From the NCBI GenBank assembly GCA_944383885.1, contig CALWRF010000020.1, forward strand, positions 124,001-188,000: 64,000 nt of DNA. The letters run 5' to 3'. This DNA comes from an uncultured Clostridia bacterium (lineage in GTDB: Bacteria > Bacillota > Clostridia > Lachnospirales > Anaerotignaceae). The notes beneath the pieces were generated by a model. The model had not been told where the DNA came from. It searched no databases and saw only the letters and a list, made by a program, of their open reading frames with translations. Within the stretch, counting starts at the first letter, position 1. Every line of letters begins with the position of its first letter. Positions 23,408 to 59,566 of the stretch are shown here, one piece after another. The translations under genes and the position numbers were made by a program.

Positions 23408-23474
23408 GCTAAATGTGGAATTTTTATGAATATAATTAATGTTAATTGAAAGTATAAACAACAGGAGGTGTAAT

Positions 23475-24746
23475 ATGATACAGCTTAAAACCCTTTCAAA
23501 CGGAGTAAGGGCGGTTCTTGAAGAACTGCCTTATGTAAGAAGTGTGGCTTTTGGCATTTATGTAAAAAACGGCTCAGCCCACGAAGACAAGGAGCATGAG
23601 GGAATTTCCCATTATATAGAGCACATGATGTTTAAAGGCACAAAAAACAGGACTTCAAAACAGATTGCAGAGGATATGGACGAGCTTGGAGGTCAGATAA
23701 ACGCCTATACAACTAAAGAATATACATGTTATCACTTTAGGACACTTGACAGCCATTTTGATAAGGCTTTAGATATATTAAGCGATATGTTCTTAAATTC
23801 AAATTTTGATGAAGCCGACATTGCTAAAGAAAGAAATGTTATAACAGAAGAAATAAATATGTATGATGATGACCCTGAGGAAAGAGTTCAGGACATAATG
23901 CAGTATAACATTTGGAAAGGCTCGTCTTTGGCTCATCCTATACTTGGTACGGAGGAAACAATATCAGGTTTTGATTCAAATAAAATATATAATTATTTTA
24001 AAAACCATTACCGAAATGACAATACAGTTATTTCGGTTGTAGGCAGTTTTAAAACAGATGAAATGATTTATAAACTGGAAAAAGTTTTTGGTGAATGGAA
24101 AACTCAAAAACCAGATAGAATTTTAACAATAAACGCGCAGTATCATCCCTCAATAGCTTCAGAAGAAAAGGATACAGAACAGCTTCATTTATGCTTCTCT
24201 TTTCCTGCATACAAAAGAGAGCATAAAATGAAATACCCTTATGCCATTTTGAACGCTGTTTTCGGCGGAGGAATGAGCTCAATGCTTTTCCAGAAAGTTC
24301 GTGAGGAAAACGGACTTTCATATACAATTTACAGTTTTCCGTCATCTTATGAAAATACAGGGTCTTTTACCATATATACAGCATTAAACCCTGTCCAGAC
24401 AAAAAGCGTGTGCGGTATTATTAAATACTGCATATCTGACCTTAAATCAAATGGTATTTCAAAAGAACTGCTTAACAAAACAAAAACACAGCTTATAAGC
24501 GGCTTTATAATAGGAAATGAAAGCACTGTAAGCCGAATGACATCAAACGGTGTTTCGGTTTTAATGCTGGGTTATGCCAATGAACAGGAAGAAACAATAA
24601 GAGAGGCAGAAATGGCAACAAAAGAAGATGTAGCGCTTGTGGCTAATGAAATTTTTGATTTTGAAAAAATTTCAATTACTGCCTGCGGCAATGTAGCTAA
24701 TTCAGATTTGAATAATCTGGCGGATATATTCCACACGAATAATTGA
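23475..24746 (+). CDS. M16 family zinc peptidase (processing-peptidase-like)
   Basis: A 423-residue single-chain M16 peptidase. The inverted zinc motif HYIEH (HXXEH, residues 46-50) is intact, and a distal acidic ligand lies in the VITEEINMYDDDPEE stretch. The protein has the two-domain M16B architecture. ATG 23475 is chosen because AGGAGGTG lies 5 bases upstream; the longer frame to 23439 has no ribosome site. Relatives (YmxG) are often encoded near dut or pnp, but not here. Confidence 0.92.
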   Translation: MIQLKTLSNGVRAVLEELPYVRSVAFGIYVKNGSAHEDKEHEGISHYIEHMMFKGTKNRTSKQIAEDMDELGGQINAYTTKEYTCYHFRTLDSHFDKALDILSDMFLNSNFDEADIAKERNVITEEINMYDDDPEERVQDIMQYNIWKGSSLAHPILGTEETISGFDSNKIYNYFKNHYRNDNTVISVVGSFKTDEMIYKLEKVFGEWKTQKPDRILTINAQYHPSIASEEKDTEQLHLCFSFPAYKREHKMKYPYAILNAVFGGGMSSMLFQKVREENGLSYTIYSFPSSYENTGSFTIYTALNPVQTKSVCGIIKYCISDLKSNGISKELLNKTKTQLISGFIIGNESTVSRMTSNGVSVLMLGYANEQEETIREAEMATKEDVALVANEIFDFEKISITACGNVANSDLNNLADIFHTNN

Positions 24747-24797
24747 ACCATATAAAGGGAACATTATTAACAGATTAATATATAAAGGAGTGATATT

Positions 24798-25028
24798 ATG
24801 AAAATTCTTGACTGGATTTCCCTTACACTTGTAATTATAGGCGCATTAAACTGGGGGCTTATTGGTTTTTTTGATTTTAATCTTGTAACTTCAATATTTA
24901 ACGGCAGCTTAAGTTTTATTGCAAGAATTATATTTGCCTTAGTGGGTTTAGCCGGACTTTACAGTTTAAGTATATATGGCAGGCTTGACGCGGCATATAG
25001 TTTAAAGGAAGCGAAACATACACATTAA
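24798..25028 (+). CDS. DUF378 small membrane protein
   Basis: A 76-residue protein with two hydrophobic helices and the DUF378 signatures ALNWGLIG and the glycine-rich VGLAGLYSL. It has an AAAGGAGTG ribosome site. Function is unknown. It ends in a strong terminator. Confidence 0.88.
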   Translation: MKILDWISLTLVIIGALNWGLIGFFDFNLVTSIFNGSLSFIARIIFALVGLAGLYSLSIYGRLDAAYSLKEAKHTH

Positions 25029-25034
25029 GATTAT

Positions 25035-25072
25035 CGGCACGATAGGTTTTATTATTTATCGTGCCGTTTTAT
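25035..25072 (+). terminator. Intrinsic terminator of the DUF378 gene
   Basis: CGGCACGATA (25035-25044) pairs perfectly with TATCGTGCCG (25057-25066), followed by TTTTATTTT. The rest of the 294-base gap holds a promoter and nothing else that I can see. Confidence 0.8.
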
Positions 25073-25184
25073 TTTATAAATATTTTTGTAAAATTTAGTT
25101 TTAATTCGGCTTTTTATTTGCTTTTATATTTTAATTTGCAGAAAAATATACTTAAAATTAGAGCAAAACAAAACATTTTATGCT

Positions 25185-25212
25185 TTGAAATATATTTATA
25201 ATATGTTATAAT
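25185..25212 (+). promoter_or_regulatory. Promoter of the DapL-like gene
   Basis: TTGAAA (25185-25190), 16 bases, TATAAT (25207-25212). The leader would be about 105 bases. Confidence 0.55.
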
Positions 25213-25322
25213 TTATAAGCATTTTAAGACAATAAAATATATGGTATATCATTAGTTTATGCTGAAATTTAATTTGCTTAATTGAATGTTATATATTTAG
25301 AATTTTAAAGGGAGGATTTAAA

Positions 25323-26564
25323 ATGGCTGACAGTTACATACAGAAAATTATTTCTGAAAGATTGGGTGGCAGAAGATTTGGAAAGGATATGGATTTATCA
25401 GTTAATGATAAAATAAGCGTATCTAAGAGCTCAGCCGTTGCTCGACATCCTGAATTAACTTTAATAGATTTCAGCTCAAATGAACCGGATGCTATGGCAG
25501 ACTGCGGTGTTATAAATGAATTTGCAAAACAGGCTAATATATGGGAAAACAGAGTTTATTCCAACAGTACAGATAATGAGTTTGCTCTTGCGGCAGCTAA
25601 ATATATGGAAAATACATTTGGTGTTGAAAACTTAAATCCCGATACAGATATTGCTTATAATTCCGGTGTTTATTCAGCAGTATTTTCAGTAATGCAGGCT
25701 TTTATTAATCCAGGCGATGTGGCTGTTGTAACATCGCCTGCAAGTGAATATGTATTGAAAGCTGTAGAATTATCCGGCGGAGAAATTTATTTATTGCCTC
25801 TTACGGAAAGCAATGTGTATTTGCCTGACTTGGATTCTATACCGGAAGATATAGCCGAAAGGGCAAAAGTTTTATATATTAATTATCCGAATAACCCAAC
25901 AGGTGTTATGGGAACAGAGAAGGTATTTAGAAAAATTGTAAGATTTGCAAAAAAGAATAAAATGATTGTTGTAAATGATGCCACATACGCGTCTGTAGTA
26001 TACGACGGGGCTAAACCAGTTAGTTTTCTTGGTGTTAATGGAGCAAAAGACGTAGGTATAGAAATACATTCTTTAAGCGGCTCGTTTAACATGTCCGGCT
26101 GGGCAATAGGTTTTACGGCAGGCAATACTCTTATTGTAAAAGCAGTTTCATCTTTTGCTGCTTTAAGCGGATTAAGCAAGTTTAAAGCTGAGCAGTTAGC
26201 TGCTAAATATGCCCTTGAACATACTGAAATAACTGCCCAGACAGTTGAAAAATATTCAAGAAGGATGGATATGCTTACTGCTGTCCTTAAAAAGTGCGGT
26301 TTTAAAGTAAAAAAACCAAAAGCTTCTATGTTCTTATTTGCTAAAGCCCCTAAAGGCATTAAGGACGGTATTAAATTTAAGACATCTGAAGATTTCTGCC
26401 AATGGCTTTTAAATGAAAAACTTATTGCTGCTGTTCCGTATAAAGACTGCGGTAACGGTGTGCGTTTTTCAGTTACATTTGCAGCGTTGGGCGAAAACGA
26501 AGAGAAGTCTGTAATTGAGAGTTTTGCTGAAAGACTTTCTGGCATAAAATTCGAGTTTGAGTAA
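25323..26564 (+). CDS. DapL-type aminotransferase homologue lacking the PLP lysine (probable pseudoenzyme)
   Basis: A 413-residue class I/II aminotransferase fold, colinear with clostridial LL-diaminopimelate aminotransferases from the N-terminal SYIQKIISERLGG to the C-terminal RFSVTF segment. NYPNNPTG and the PLP-pyridine Asp region (VNDATYA) are kept. The Schiff-base motif, normally SLSKxxNMTGWRIGF, reads SLSGSFNMSGWAIGF: the catalytic Lys is Gly253 and the phosphate-binding Arg is Ala261. The usual PGYPV segment reads PASEY. The frame is intact and has a GGGAGG ribosome site, so it looks expressed rather than decayed. It is unlikely to catalyse transamination; a structural or regulatory role is inference. 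Confidence 0.9.
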   Translation: MADSYIQKIISERLGGRRFGKDMDLSVNDKISVSKSSAVARHPELTLIDFSSNEPDAMADCGVINEFAKQANIWENRVYSNSTDNEFALAAAKYMENTFGVENLNPDTDIAYNSGVYSAVFSVMQAFINPGDVAVVTSPASEYVLKAVELSGGEIYLLPLTESNVYLPDLDSIPEDIAERAKVLYINYPNNPTGVMGTEKVFRKIVRFAKKNKMIVVNDATYASVVYDGAKPVSFLGVNGAKDVGIEIHSLSGSFNMSGWAIGFTAGNTLIVKAVSSFAALSGLSKFKAEQLAAKYALEHTEITAQTVEKYSRRMDMLTAVLKKCGFKVKKPKASMFLFAKAPKGIKDGIKFKTSEDFCQWLLNEKLIAAVPYKDCGNGVRFSVTFAALGENEEKSVIESFAERLSGIKFEFE

Positions 26565-26603
26565 TTTAACTGGTAATTTTGACATGATATTGGAGTGGTT
26601 CAA

Positions 26604-27881
26604 ATGGCGGAAAAAACACAGCTTCATTCCACAGATGAAATACAGGAAAAAGTTGTTTTAGTCGGCATAGACTTAAATAATGACAATATAGATGTTAACG
26701 CGTGCCTTGACGAACTGAGCAGGCTTGTAGAAACAGCAGGCGCCGTGGAAGCAGGCAGGCTTATACAGAAAAGGGAACGCATTAATCCCGGACTTTATTT
26801 AGGCACGGGAAAAGTTGAGGAATTAAAGAATGCAGTTGCTGAATTAGGCGCTACAGGCGTAGTTTGTGATGATGAGCTTTCCCCGGCGCAGCTTAAAAAC
26901 CTTGAGGCAGCTCTTGATACAAAAGTTATGGACAGGACAATGGTTATACTTGATATATTTGCCAAAAGAGCTATTTCAAGCGAAGGCAAAATTCAGGTAG
27001 AACTGGCGCAGCTTAAATACAGGCTTTCGAGGTTATCTGGAATAGGTGCGTCGCTATCACGTTTAGGAGGCGGAATTGGTACAAGAGGACCGGGCGAGAA
27101 GAAGCTGGAAACAGACCGGCGCTATATAAAAGAACGTATAGGCGAGTTAAAAGAAAGCCTTGAGGAAATAAGGACTCACAGAGAACTTTTAAGAACACAG
27201 CGCAAAAAGAAGGGCTCAGTTGTAGTTTCACTTGTTGGATATACCAACGCCGGAAAATCAACTATATTAAATGCTATTACTAACGCAGGTGTTTTAGAAG
27301 AGGACAAGCTTTTTGCAACCCTTGATACTACAACGCGTTTGACTCAGCTTCCGGGCGGGACTAATATAATGCTTACAGATACAGTAGGCTTTATACAAAA
27401 GCTTTCCCACCATCTTATAGAAGCTTTTAAAGCTACACTTGAAGAGCTGCAATATGCTGATATACTGCTGCATGTAGTAGATGCTTCAGACCCTTCGGCA
27501 GATGAGCACATGAAGGTTGTATATGATACACTTAAAGATTTGGGATGTGAAGGCAAGCCGATTATAACTGTATTTAATAAAATTGACTTAGCCTGCAATT
27601 TCCATATTCCAGAAGATAAAAAAAGTATTTCGCAGATAGCGATATCGGCAAAAAACAATAAAGACTTAGAAAAACTTTTGGCTGAAATTGAAAGAGTTTT
27701 GAAGTCTTTCAGAAAATGCACTAAAGTTCTTATACCTTATTCTGAAGGCGGACTTTTGAACATCATATATGGCAAATGCGAGATTATAAACGAAGAGCAT
27801 ACTTTTGAAGGAACTCTTATTGAAGCGTATATGGATGAAGAAACAATCTCGCGCTTAAAAGACTATGTTGTTTTGCAATAA
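26604..27881 (+). CDS. hflX: Ribosome-associated GTPase HflX
   Basis: A 425-residue HflX GTPase. It has the N-terminal HflX domain (ERINPGLYLGTGKVEEL), a glycine-rich linker (RLGGGIGTRGPGEKKLE) and the G domain with GYTNAGKST, DTVGF and NKIDL. HflX binds 70S/50S ribosomes and splits stalled ribosomes in stress. ATG 26604 has GGAG 8 bases upstream and is preferred over GTG 26595. Confidence 0.95.
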   Translation: MAEKTQLHSTDEIQEKVVLVGIDLNNDNIDVNACLDELSRLVETAGAVEAGRLIQKRERINPGLYLGTGKVEELKNAVAELGATGVVCDDELSPAQLKNLEAALDTKVMDRTMVILDIFAKRAISSEGKIQVELAQLKYRLSRLSGIGASLSRLGGGIGTRGPGEKKLETDRRYIKERIGELKESLEEIRTHRELLRTQRKKKGSVVVSLVGYTNAGKSTILNAITNAGVLEEDKLFATLDTTTRLTQLPGGTNIMLTDTVGFIQKLSHHLIEAFKATLEELQYADILLHVVDASDPSADEHMKVVYDTLKDLGCEGKPIITVFNKIDLACNFHIPEDKKSISQIAISAKNNKDLEKLLAEIERVLKSFRKCTKVLIPYSEGGLLNIIYGKCEIINEEHTFEGTLIEAYMDEETISRLKDYVVLQ

Positions 27882-58672: not shown

Positions 58673-59566
58673 ATGAAGGCACAGTATATAACGCCGGCTG
58701 TTACTGTTTTTGATAACACCGGAAAAGTCGATGAAAAAGGCTGCTGCAAACTTTATGACCATTTAATTTCCGGCGGTATAGACGGAATAGTGGTTATGGG
58801 AAGCACAGGCGAGTTTTTTGAAATGACAATGCCTGAAATTAAAAGGCTTATAGATATTTCAACTTCTCACTGCAAAGGCAGGACAAGGCTTTTAATTGGA
58901 ACAAGCCGTATGATAGCTGATGAAACAATAGAGCTTGGAAACTACGCCATTGAAAAAGGCGCTGACGGAGTTATGATTATATCTCCTTATTACTTGCAGC
59001 TTTCAGATGAAAGCATAGAGTATTATTATGACTTGGTTTGTAAAGGCATAAAAGGCGACGTTTACCTTTATAACTATCCAGACATAACAGGGCACCAAAT
59101 TAATTACGATTTAATTTTAAGGCTTTTAAAGAAACATAATAACATTAAAGGCATTAAAGATACAACAGCTCTTGTTTCACATACACGTGATTTAATTAAT
59201 AATATTCTGCCTGAATACCCGGATTTTGAAATTTACAATGGTTTTGATGAAAATTTTGCTTTTGTGGCGCTTTCAGGAGGAGCAGGCGTAATAGGCGGTT
59301 TGTCAAACCTTATACCTGAAATATTTTCAAAATGGGTTAAAGCTGTAAATAACGGTGACACAGAGGGTATAGCCCAATATCAAAAAATTATAGATAAAGC
59401 TATGGAGATTTATGCTGTAAACAAACCTTTTATACCAACAATGAAAAGAGCTCTTAATATACGCGGTTTAGGAATAAGCGAATATGTTAAACCGCCGTTT
59501 CTGCCTATTAATGATAAACAGGAAGAAAAATTAAGGAGCATAATGAAAAATATAGGAATACTTTAA
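58673..59566 (+). CDS. DapA/NanA-family aldolase (dihydrodipicolinate-synthase-like)
   Basis: A 297-residue class I aldolase barrel. The family GSTGEFF motif, the Tyr in YLYNYP and the Schiff-base Lys in IKGIKDTT are all present, so it should be active. Similarity is to the broad DHDPS/NAL/KDG-aldolase group; the 2-oxo-acid substrate cannot be fixed. Residues after the lysine (TTALVSHTRDL) differ from those usual in true DapA. The SD is AAGGAGG. It is a single gene after a terminator. Confidence 0.88.
   Translation: MKAQYITPAVTVFDNTGKVDEKGCCKLYDHLISGGIDGIVVMGSTGEFFEMTMPEIKRLIDISTSHCKGRTRLLIGTSRMIADETIELGNYAIEKGADGVMIISPYYLQLSDESIEYYYDLVCKGIKGDVYLYNYPDITGHQINYDLILRLLKKHNNIKGIKDTTALVSHTRDLINNILPEYPDFEIYNGFDENFAFVALSGGAGVIGGLSNLIPEIFSKWVKAVNNGDTEGIAQYQKIIDKAMEIYAVNKPFIPTMKRALNIRGLGISEYVKPPFLPINDKQEEKLRSIMKNIGIL

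Follow-up and report, generated by a model that had tools for sequence, protein, structure and literature searches.

The open reading frame at positions 25323-26564 (forward strand) of the window, the 64,000-nucleotide stretch of DNA that was analysed, very probably encodes a retained, catalytically dead homologue of LL-diaminopimelate aminotransferase (a pseudo-DapL) that followed replacement of the biosynthetic route. The frame does not result from an assembly error, and it is not a pseudogene in decay. The fuller explanation, a former dapL whose catalysis became dispensable and whose protein was kept for a non-catalytic role, is on balance probable. No description of a DapL pseudoenzyme was found in the open-licence literature.

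The reading frame has an intact ATG start and an intact stop codon, and its best NCBIfam match is NF004937/PRK06290, 'LL-diaminopimelate aminotransferase' (EC 2.6.1.83), which it matches end to end, in agreement with the first-pass annotation of a full-length, colinear, DapL-like protein. However, the score of 475 bits lies under the curated family cut-off of 585 bits; an intact DapL from the same genus (genome G004) scores 681 bits. The protein also matches Pfam PF00155 and is thus assigned to the fold-type-I aminotransferases. Residue columns were assigned by alignment with about 100 homologues. The gene and its principal active-site replacements are as follows.

25323..26564, forward strand: pseudo-dapL, 413 aa, full-length homologue of PRK06290-type LL-diaminopimelate aminotransferase without the catalytic lysine (alignment, profiles, AlphaFold2 model)
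26079..26081, forward strand: Gly253 (codon GGC), aligned with the PLP Schiff-base lysine (alignment)
26103..26105, forward strand: Ala261 (codon GCA), aligned with the PLP phosphate-binding arginine (alignment)
25740..25745, forward strand: Ala140-Ser141, replacing the invariant Gly-Tyr of PGY, which includes the ring-stacking tyrosine, so that PGY becomes PAS (alignment)

The Schiff-base lysine of the SLSKxxNMTGWR motif is therefore absent, and the three replacements first read from the sequence (Gly253, Ala261 and PASEY for PGYPV) hold in the alignment. The damage extends further. Among 106 near-invariant columns, each at least 97% identical across 101 intact homologues, 30 are altered in all three pseudo-DapLs of the window genus, about 27 more positions than the features already recorded. 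They include most of the pocket: Y26, G51, G53, D81, N82, G83, G140, Y141, K253, R261, D280, N281, D283, Q286 and W373. The phosphate cup S116-K117 is likewise lost, together with R261 and the stacking tyrosine. Residues R381, N190, S250 and W260 are kept in the pseudo-DapLs of the genus, as are many Gly/Pro scaffold positions, and the window protein also keeps D219 and Y222. All three pseudo-DapLs of the genus share a new lysine, Lys286 (Q286K), inside segment 280-286, which is close to the partner subunit's active site in the aspartate-aminotransferase fold. Judged from these residues, the window protein would neither bind PLP nor transaminate.

An intact aminotransferase fold is nevertheless plausible from structure prediction. 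The AlphaFold2 model, built with 43 aligned sequences, has a pLDDT of 90.2 and a pTM of 0.88, and the top Foldseek matches are all aminotransferases. The closest solved structures are those of BacF and other class I aminotransferases. The best PDB match is the BacF aminotransferase (PDB 6l1o/6l1n/6l1l; TM 0.84-0.88), which has the same fold as the predicted model at about 28% identity but, unlike the window protein, is an active PLP enzyme with lysine, Arg and PGY motif intact. PDB entry 9a7o is also among the Foldseek fold matches; it prompted a search of the open-licence literature for a GpsB–aminotransferase interaction, in which no paper was found.

The window genus comprises six genomes, three with a degenerate dapL (G000, which is the window genome, G003 and G001) and three with an intact one (G002, G004 and G005). 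The pseudo-DapLs of G003 and G001 are 83% and 66% identical to the window protein, respectively. The intact DapLs of the congeners are 57-58% identical to it and 86-88% identical among themselves. For comparison, the neighbouring hflX product is 92% identical between the window genome and G003 and 82% between the window genome and G004, and the neighbouring M16 peptidase 91% and 75%, respectively. Therefore, the intact DapL evolves more slowly than its neighbours and the pseudo-DapL much faster. Across the three pseudo-DapLs, the lysine column reads Gly, Ser and Tyr and the Arg column Ala, Ser and Ser. Since the same positions are mutated to different residues in two sister species, chance or sequencing error is excluded. 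A clade sharing Gly and Ala at these sites, with purifying selection elsewhere, had been named as a sign of a pseudoenzyme family; the losses are indeed common to the clade and the remainder is under purifying selection, although the replacing residues differ.

Selection was analysed with a GY94-type codon model of our own (F3x4, fixed FastTree tree), with hflX and the M16 peptidase gene as controls. All omega values are approximate because dS is above 1 and the model is home-made, and the samples are small (three species in the window genus and three in a second lineage described below). For the whole dapL gene, omega is 0.042 on background branches, 0.53 on the stem of the pseudo-DapLs and 0.096 in their crown. 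The stem value is indistinguishable from 1 (2dlnL 0.84), whereas omega = 1 is rejected for the crown (2dlnL 397). The terminal branches are each individually below 1 (2dlnL 10-16), and the pairwise omega between the window genome and G003 is 0.066 at a dS of about 1.4 (omega = 1 test, 2dlnL 255). The omega shift is absent from both controls.

Regional omegas, computed with branch lengths fixed, locate the change. The pocket set of 33 columns goes from 0.005 on the background to 1.74 on the stem and 0.19 in the crown, where it is the loosest part of the protein. Two other segments behave differently and are the most conserved among the three pseudo-DapLs.

25323..25394, forward strand: N-terminal 24 residues, with the motif SYIQK..SER.GG..FGK; never relaxed, motif kept in both pseudo-DapL lineages (omega 0.035 background, 0.06 stem, 0.05 crown)
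26193..26450, forward strand: residues 291-376, where the C-terminal (small) domain begins (omega 0.05-0.06 in the crown)

A single relaxation event centred on the pocket was thus followed by renewed constraint over the remaining protein. Two marks of a conserved pseudoenzyme, loss of catalytic residues and purifying selection after that loss, are found here. The proposal that the protein is a retained pseudoenzyme and not a product of decay is accordingly well supported by the selection analysis, by the sister species and by a second, independent lineage.

The surroundings of the gene are conserved, with one exception.

23439..24746, forward strand: M16-type peptidase gene, upstream syntenic neighbour and selection control
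24795..25028, forward strand: DUF378 membrane-protein ORF, 77 aa; in intact relatives, dapF sits between this ORF and dapL
25035..25066, forward strand: intrinsic-terminator-like hairpin, ending the upstream unit
25067..25322, forward strand: slot of dapF in intact relatives; dapF remnant not found
25185..25212, forward strand: sigma-A-like promoter TTGAAA-N16-TATAAT with extended -10 (11/12), conserved in G003 and G001
25310..25315, forward strand: ribosome-binding site GGGAGG, identical across the three pseudo-dapL species
26595..27881, forward strand: hflX, beginning 30 nt after dapL and keeping synteny with it in the whole family; selection control

Eight intact genomes (G002, G004, G005, G009, G017, G013, G019 and G008) have dapF immediately upstream of dapL; all eight have hflX downstream, and all except G019 have the M16 peptidase gene upstream. 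The three degenerate genomes of the window genus keep this gene order, but dapF is gone from its slot, and a tblastn search of the upstream gap found no dapF remnant (best E 0.76). The promoter instead leads directly into dapL. The frame, promoter and ribosome site had been described as intact, and both signals recur in the two sister species; with this putative promoter and ribosome-binding site conserved, the pseudo-dapL may be expressed. The DUF378 ORF, previously unlisted, is conserved between the M16 peptidase gene and dapL across the family. It accounts for a conserved upstream stretch of about 210 nt that had been considered as a structured RNA, a reading that was rejected. Additionally, a CRISPR-repeat match upstream of dapL (E 4.1) was attributed to chance, and no gathering-level Rfam match indicative of riboswitch or other RNA control was found in the window or in ten homologous loci.

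Among the known meso-DAP pathways, that of meso-DAP dehydrogenase (Ddh) converts tetrahydrodipicolinate to meso-DAP directly (PMC4176475), and this one-step synthesis makes DapL and DapF unnecessary. A Ddh above the cut-off is present in G000, G001 and G003 and in the intact G004, with the domain intact in G000; in all four genomes its gene ends a V-type ATPase operon. DapF (TIGR00652) has no match in G000 (completeness 100) but is present in all seven related genomes searched in the same way, and DapL of the TIGR03542 type was not found in G000 either. The window genome thus has no recognisable LL-DAP route. For the acetylase route (DapH/DapD_Ac), only sub-cut-off background from hexapeptide repeats was detected in all genomes. 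Among the routes searched for in G000 (Ddh, DapL with DapF, and the acetylase route), Ddh is therefore the sole source of meso-DAP found. The degeneration is likely to have been caused by loss of the neighbouring dapF in combination with the presence of the alternative enzyme Ddh, a cause that the first-pass annotation had overlooked. Many intact genomes have both Ddh and DapL1, so Ddh permits the loss and does not force it.

Other related genes were noted along the way. G003 and G001 carry an additional dapF-dapL pair of plant type (TIGR03542; L125 5886-7855 and L126 6240-8395), located by a type III glutamine synthetase gene and a purF-like gene; G000 does not. The best remaining paralogue in G000 (G000:C33:7165-8175) bears the lysine, is 31% identical, falls below every DapL cut-off and lies by a pdxA-like gene. 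A lysine-bearing, sub-cut-off DapL-like aminotransferase of the PRK07681 type, adjoining a pdxA-like gene, was recorded in the window genome at L002 1405-2577. The window itself has a DapA-like aldolase gene at 58673-59566, after an RNase III-like ORF; at 157 bits against the DapA cut-off of 206, it may encode a different aldolase of that family.

A survey of 392 genomes of the order yielded three outliers (G055, G112 and G198), all from one genus (g38) of a different family (f22).

L158 5615-6919, L159 5927-7174 and L160 5811-7037, reverse strand (as listed): second-lineage degenerate dapL genes, lysine column Lys/Glu/Glu

These proteins lack PGY, the G51/G53 glycines, D280, N281 and W373, and residues Y26, G51, G53, D81, D280, N281 and W373 are lost in both lineages. 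The degeneration is not identical, as G055 retains the lysine and Arg261, Gln286 is still present in the second lineage, and Cys replaces R381 in G198. No DapF was found anywhere in the three genomes, although all eleven intact genomes searched alongside have it, and all three have Ddh. Thus dapF is absent from the dapL unit in all six degenerate cases. The crown omega of the second lineage is 0.052, at saturated dS, and omega = 1 is rejected. In a joint tree, the window group is nested inside its own genus with a support of 100, and an AU test rejects monophyly of the two pseudo-DapL lineages (p 0.032); the gene tree places the second lineage with poor resolution. Its neighbours are genes for phosphomannose isomerase and a DUF218 protein, and hflX is not adjacent. 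Because the neighbours differ between the lineages, a common neighbour cannot explain retention. The feature common to both lineages is the protein, above all its N-terminal motif (residues 1-24) and C-terminal domain. Elsewhere in the data, G047 has an intact DapL gene (L168 4686-5924) without an adjacent dapF; its DapF is located elsewhere, with a match that reads through one TGA.

Several alternatives can be weighed against these observations. Neutral drift since the takeover by Ddh, with a stop codon yet to arise, would fit a stem omega indistinguishable from 1, a pocket free on that stem and three different residues at the lysine column. However, three full-length frames persist despite a dS of about 1.4 or more, the crown and each terminal branch reject neutrality, promoter and ribosome-binding site are conserved, and a second genus repeats the pattern; such decay is strongly disfavoured and very improbable. 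It is similarly hard to believe that the frame survives merely as a leader for hflX, coupled to it by transcription or translation. The start of hflX 30 nt downstream and the sole strong promoter upstream of dapL would suit a leader, but this role would preserve reading and not amino acids, so that an omega of 0.06-0.10 counts against it, as does a second-lineage neighbour other than hflX. Continued catalysis, with a new lysine (e.g. Lys286) or lysine-independent chemistry substituting for the Schiff-base lysine, could draw on the fixation of Q286K in the window genus and on the precedent of ColD-type dehydratases, aminotransferase-fold enzymes with His at the Lys position. Yet the phosphate cup (R261, S116-K117) and the stacking Tyr are lost, the old lysine position is variable (Gly, Ser, Tyr), and the second lineage has Gln286, two of its members having Glu in the lysine column; there is accordingly very little chance that the protein is still an enzyme.

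Two non-catalytic roles deserve somewhat more weight but are unlikely. One is a sensor, in which a partial pocket (carboxylate-binding Arg381, Asn190 and Trp260) would bind a dicarboxylate or DAP-pathway metabolite and signal without chemistry. Retention of R381, N190, S250 and W260 in all three pseudo-DapLs of the window genus is consistent with this, but the other substrate-facing residues listed above are gone in both lineages, G198 carries Cys in place of R381, and the model is weakened because the pocket is so loosely constrained. The other is a partner subunit, forming a heterodimer with an active aminotransferase and supporting or regulating that enzyme. LCB1/SPTLC1, the non-catalytic subunit of serine palmitoyltransferase, is such a case: a homologue of fold-type-I PLP enzymes that was retained after losing the PLP lysine, as the window protein was, and that works as the partner of its active paralogue LCB2. 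The conserved fold and many conserved interface-type residues would suit this role, as would the further, intact DapL of the TIGR03542 type that G001 and G003 encode together with a separate dapF, and the lysine-bearing paralogue in G000. However, G000 keeps the gene though it lacks TIGR03542 DapL (DapL2) and DapF, which weakens the model; the paralogue adjoins a pdxA-like gene instead of dap genes; and one would not by default expect fold-type-I proteins at 31% identity to form heterodimers. The relation to LCB1 is in any case only distant. A role in 'partnering a true DapL', as initially proposed, is thus unlikely in the window genome, and a partner subunit in general is improbable. PDX1.2 likewise acts together with an active paralogue, PDX1, whereas no such partner is evident for pseudo-DapL, and the folds are unrelated. 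PDX1.2 is a plant pseudoenzyme of vitamin B6 synthesis (PMC6522883, PMC6829848) and, like pseudo-DapL, is derived from a metabolic enzyme, non-catalytic, clade-restricted and conserved.

We therefore return to a dispensable catalytic activity in a protein kept for another role. The ancestor would have had a dapF-dapL unit producing meso-DAP. With Ddh in the genome, dapF would have been dropped from the unit, and the PLP and substrate pocket, released from selection, would have degenerated, after which the protein would have regained strong purifying selection. That the protein is kept, and strongly constrained outside its pocket, points to a function independent of catalysis, which upholds the suggestion of a non-transaminase role as far as a retained, non-catalytic protein is concerned; binding or regulation is what the conservation pattern would suggest. 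Most economically, the kept role would be a pre-existing one, namely binding by the DapL dimer. We tentatively propose that the usual aminotransferase dimer may act as a regulator or as a scaffold for binding, by way mainly of its N-terminal (1-24) and C-terminal (291-413) surfaces, the least or never relaxed parts, which would already be present in intact DapL. The same fate of DapL in a second, unrelated genus suggests a second job without catalysis. More speculatively, DapL of the PRK06290 type might have had this job before the pseudoenzymes arose, and it would be visible now because two unrelated Ddh genera lost dapF and the pocket yet kept the protein with its N-terminus.

If so, a core enzyme of lysine and peptidoglycan synthesis would be bifunctional in many bacteria, and the two genera would provide natural separation-of-function versions. 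They amount to a repeated natural experiment, in which an enzyme was bypassed, its partner gene lost and its pocket decayed while the protein persisted under strong selection, and they make it possible to test whether an enzyme of peptidoglycan-precursor synthesis hides a second function. Annotation pipelines that call such proteins DapL would falsely predict an LL-DAP route in genomes reliant on Ddh.

Finally, in other families of the order (L161, L162, L163, L166 and L167), genes for a glnA-like product and an ANTAR-type regulator come after dapF-dapL, and several of these loci have a type III glutamine synthetase too. DapL is thus repeatedly linked with nitrogen-assimilation genes in these families, with gene names taken from reading the sequences and not from an HMM search.
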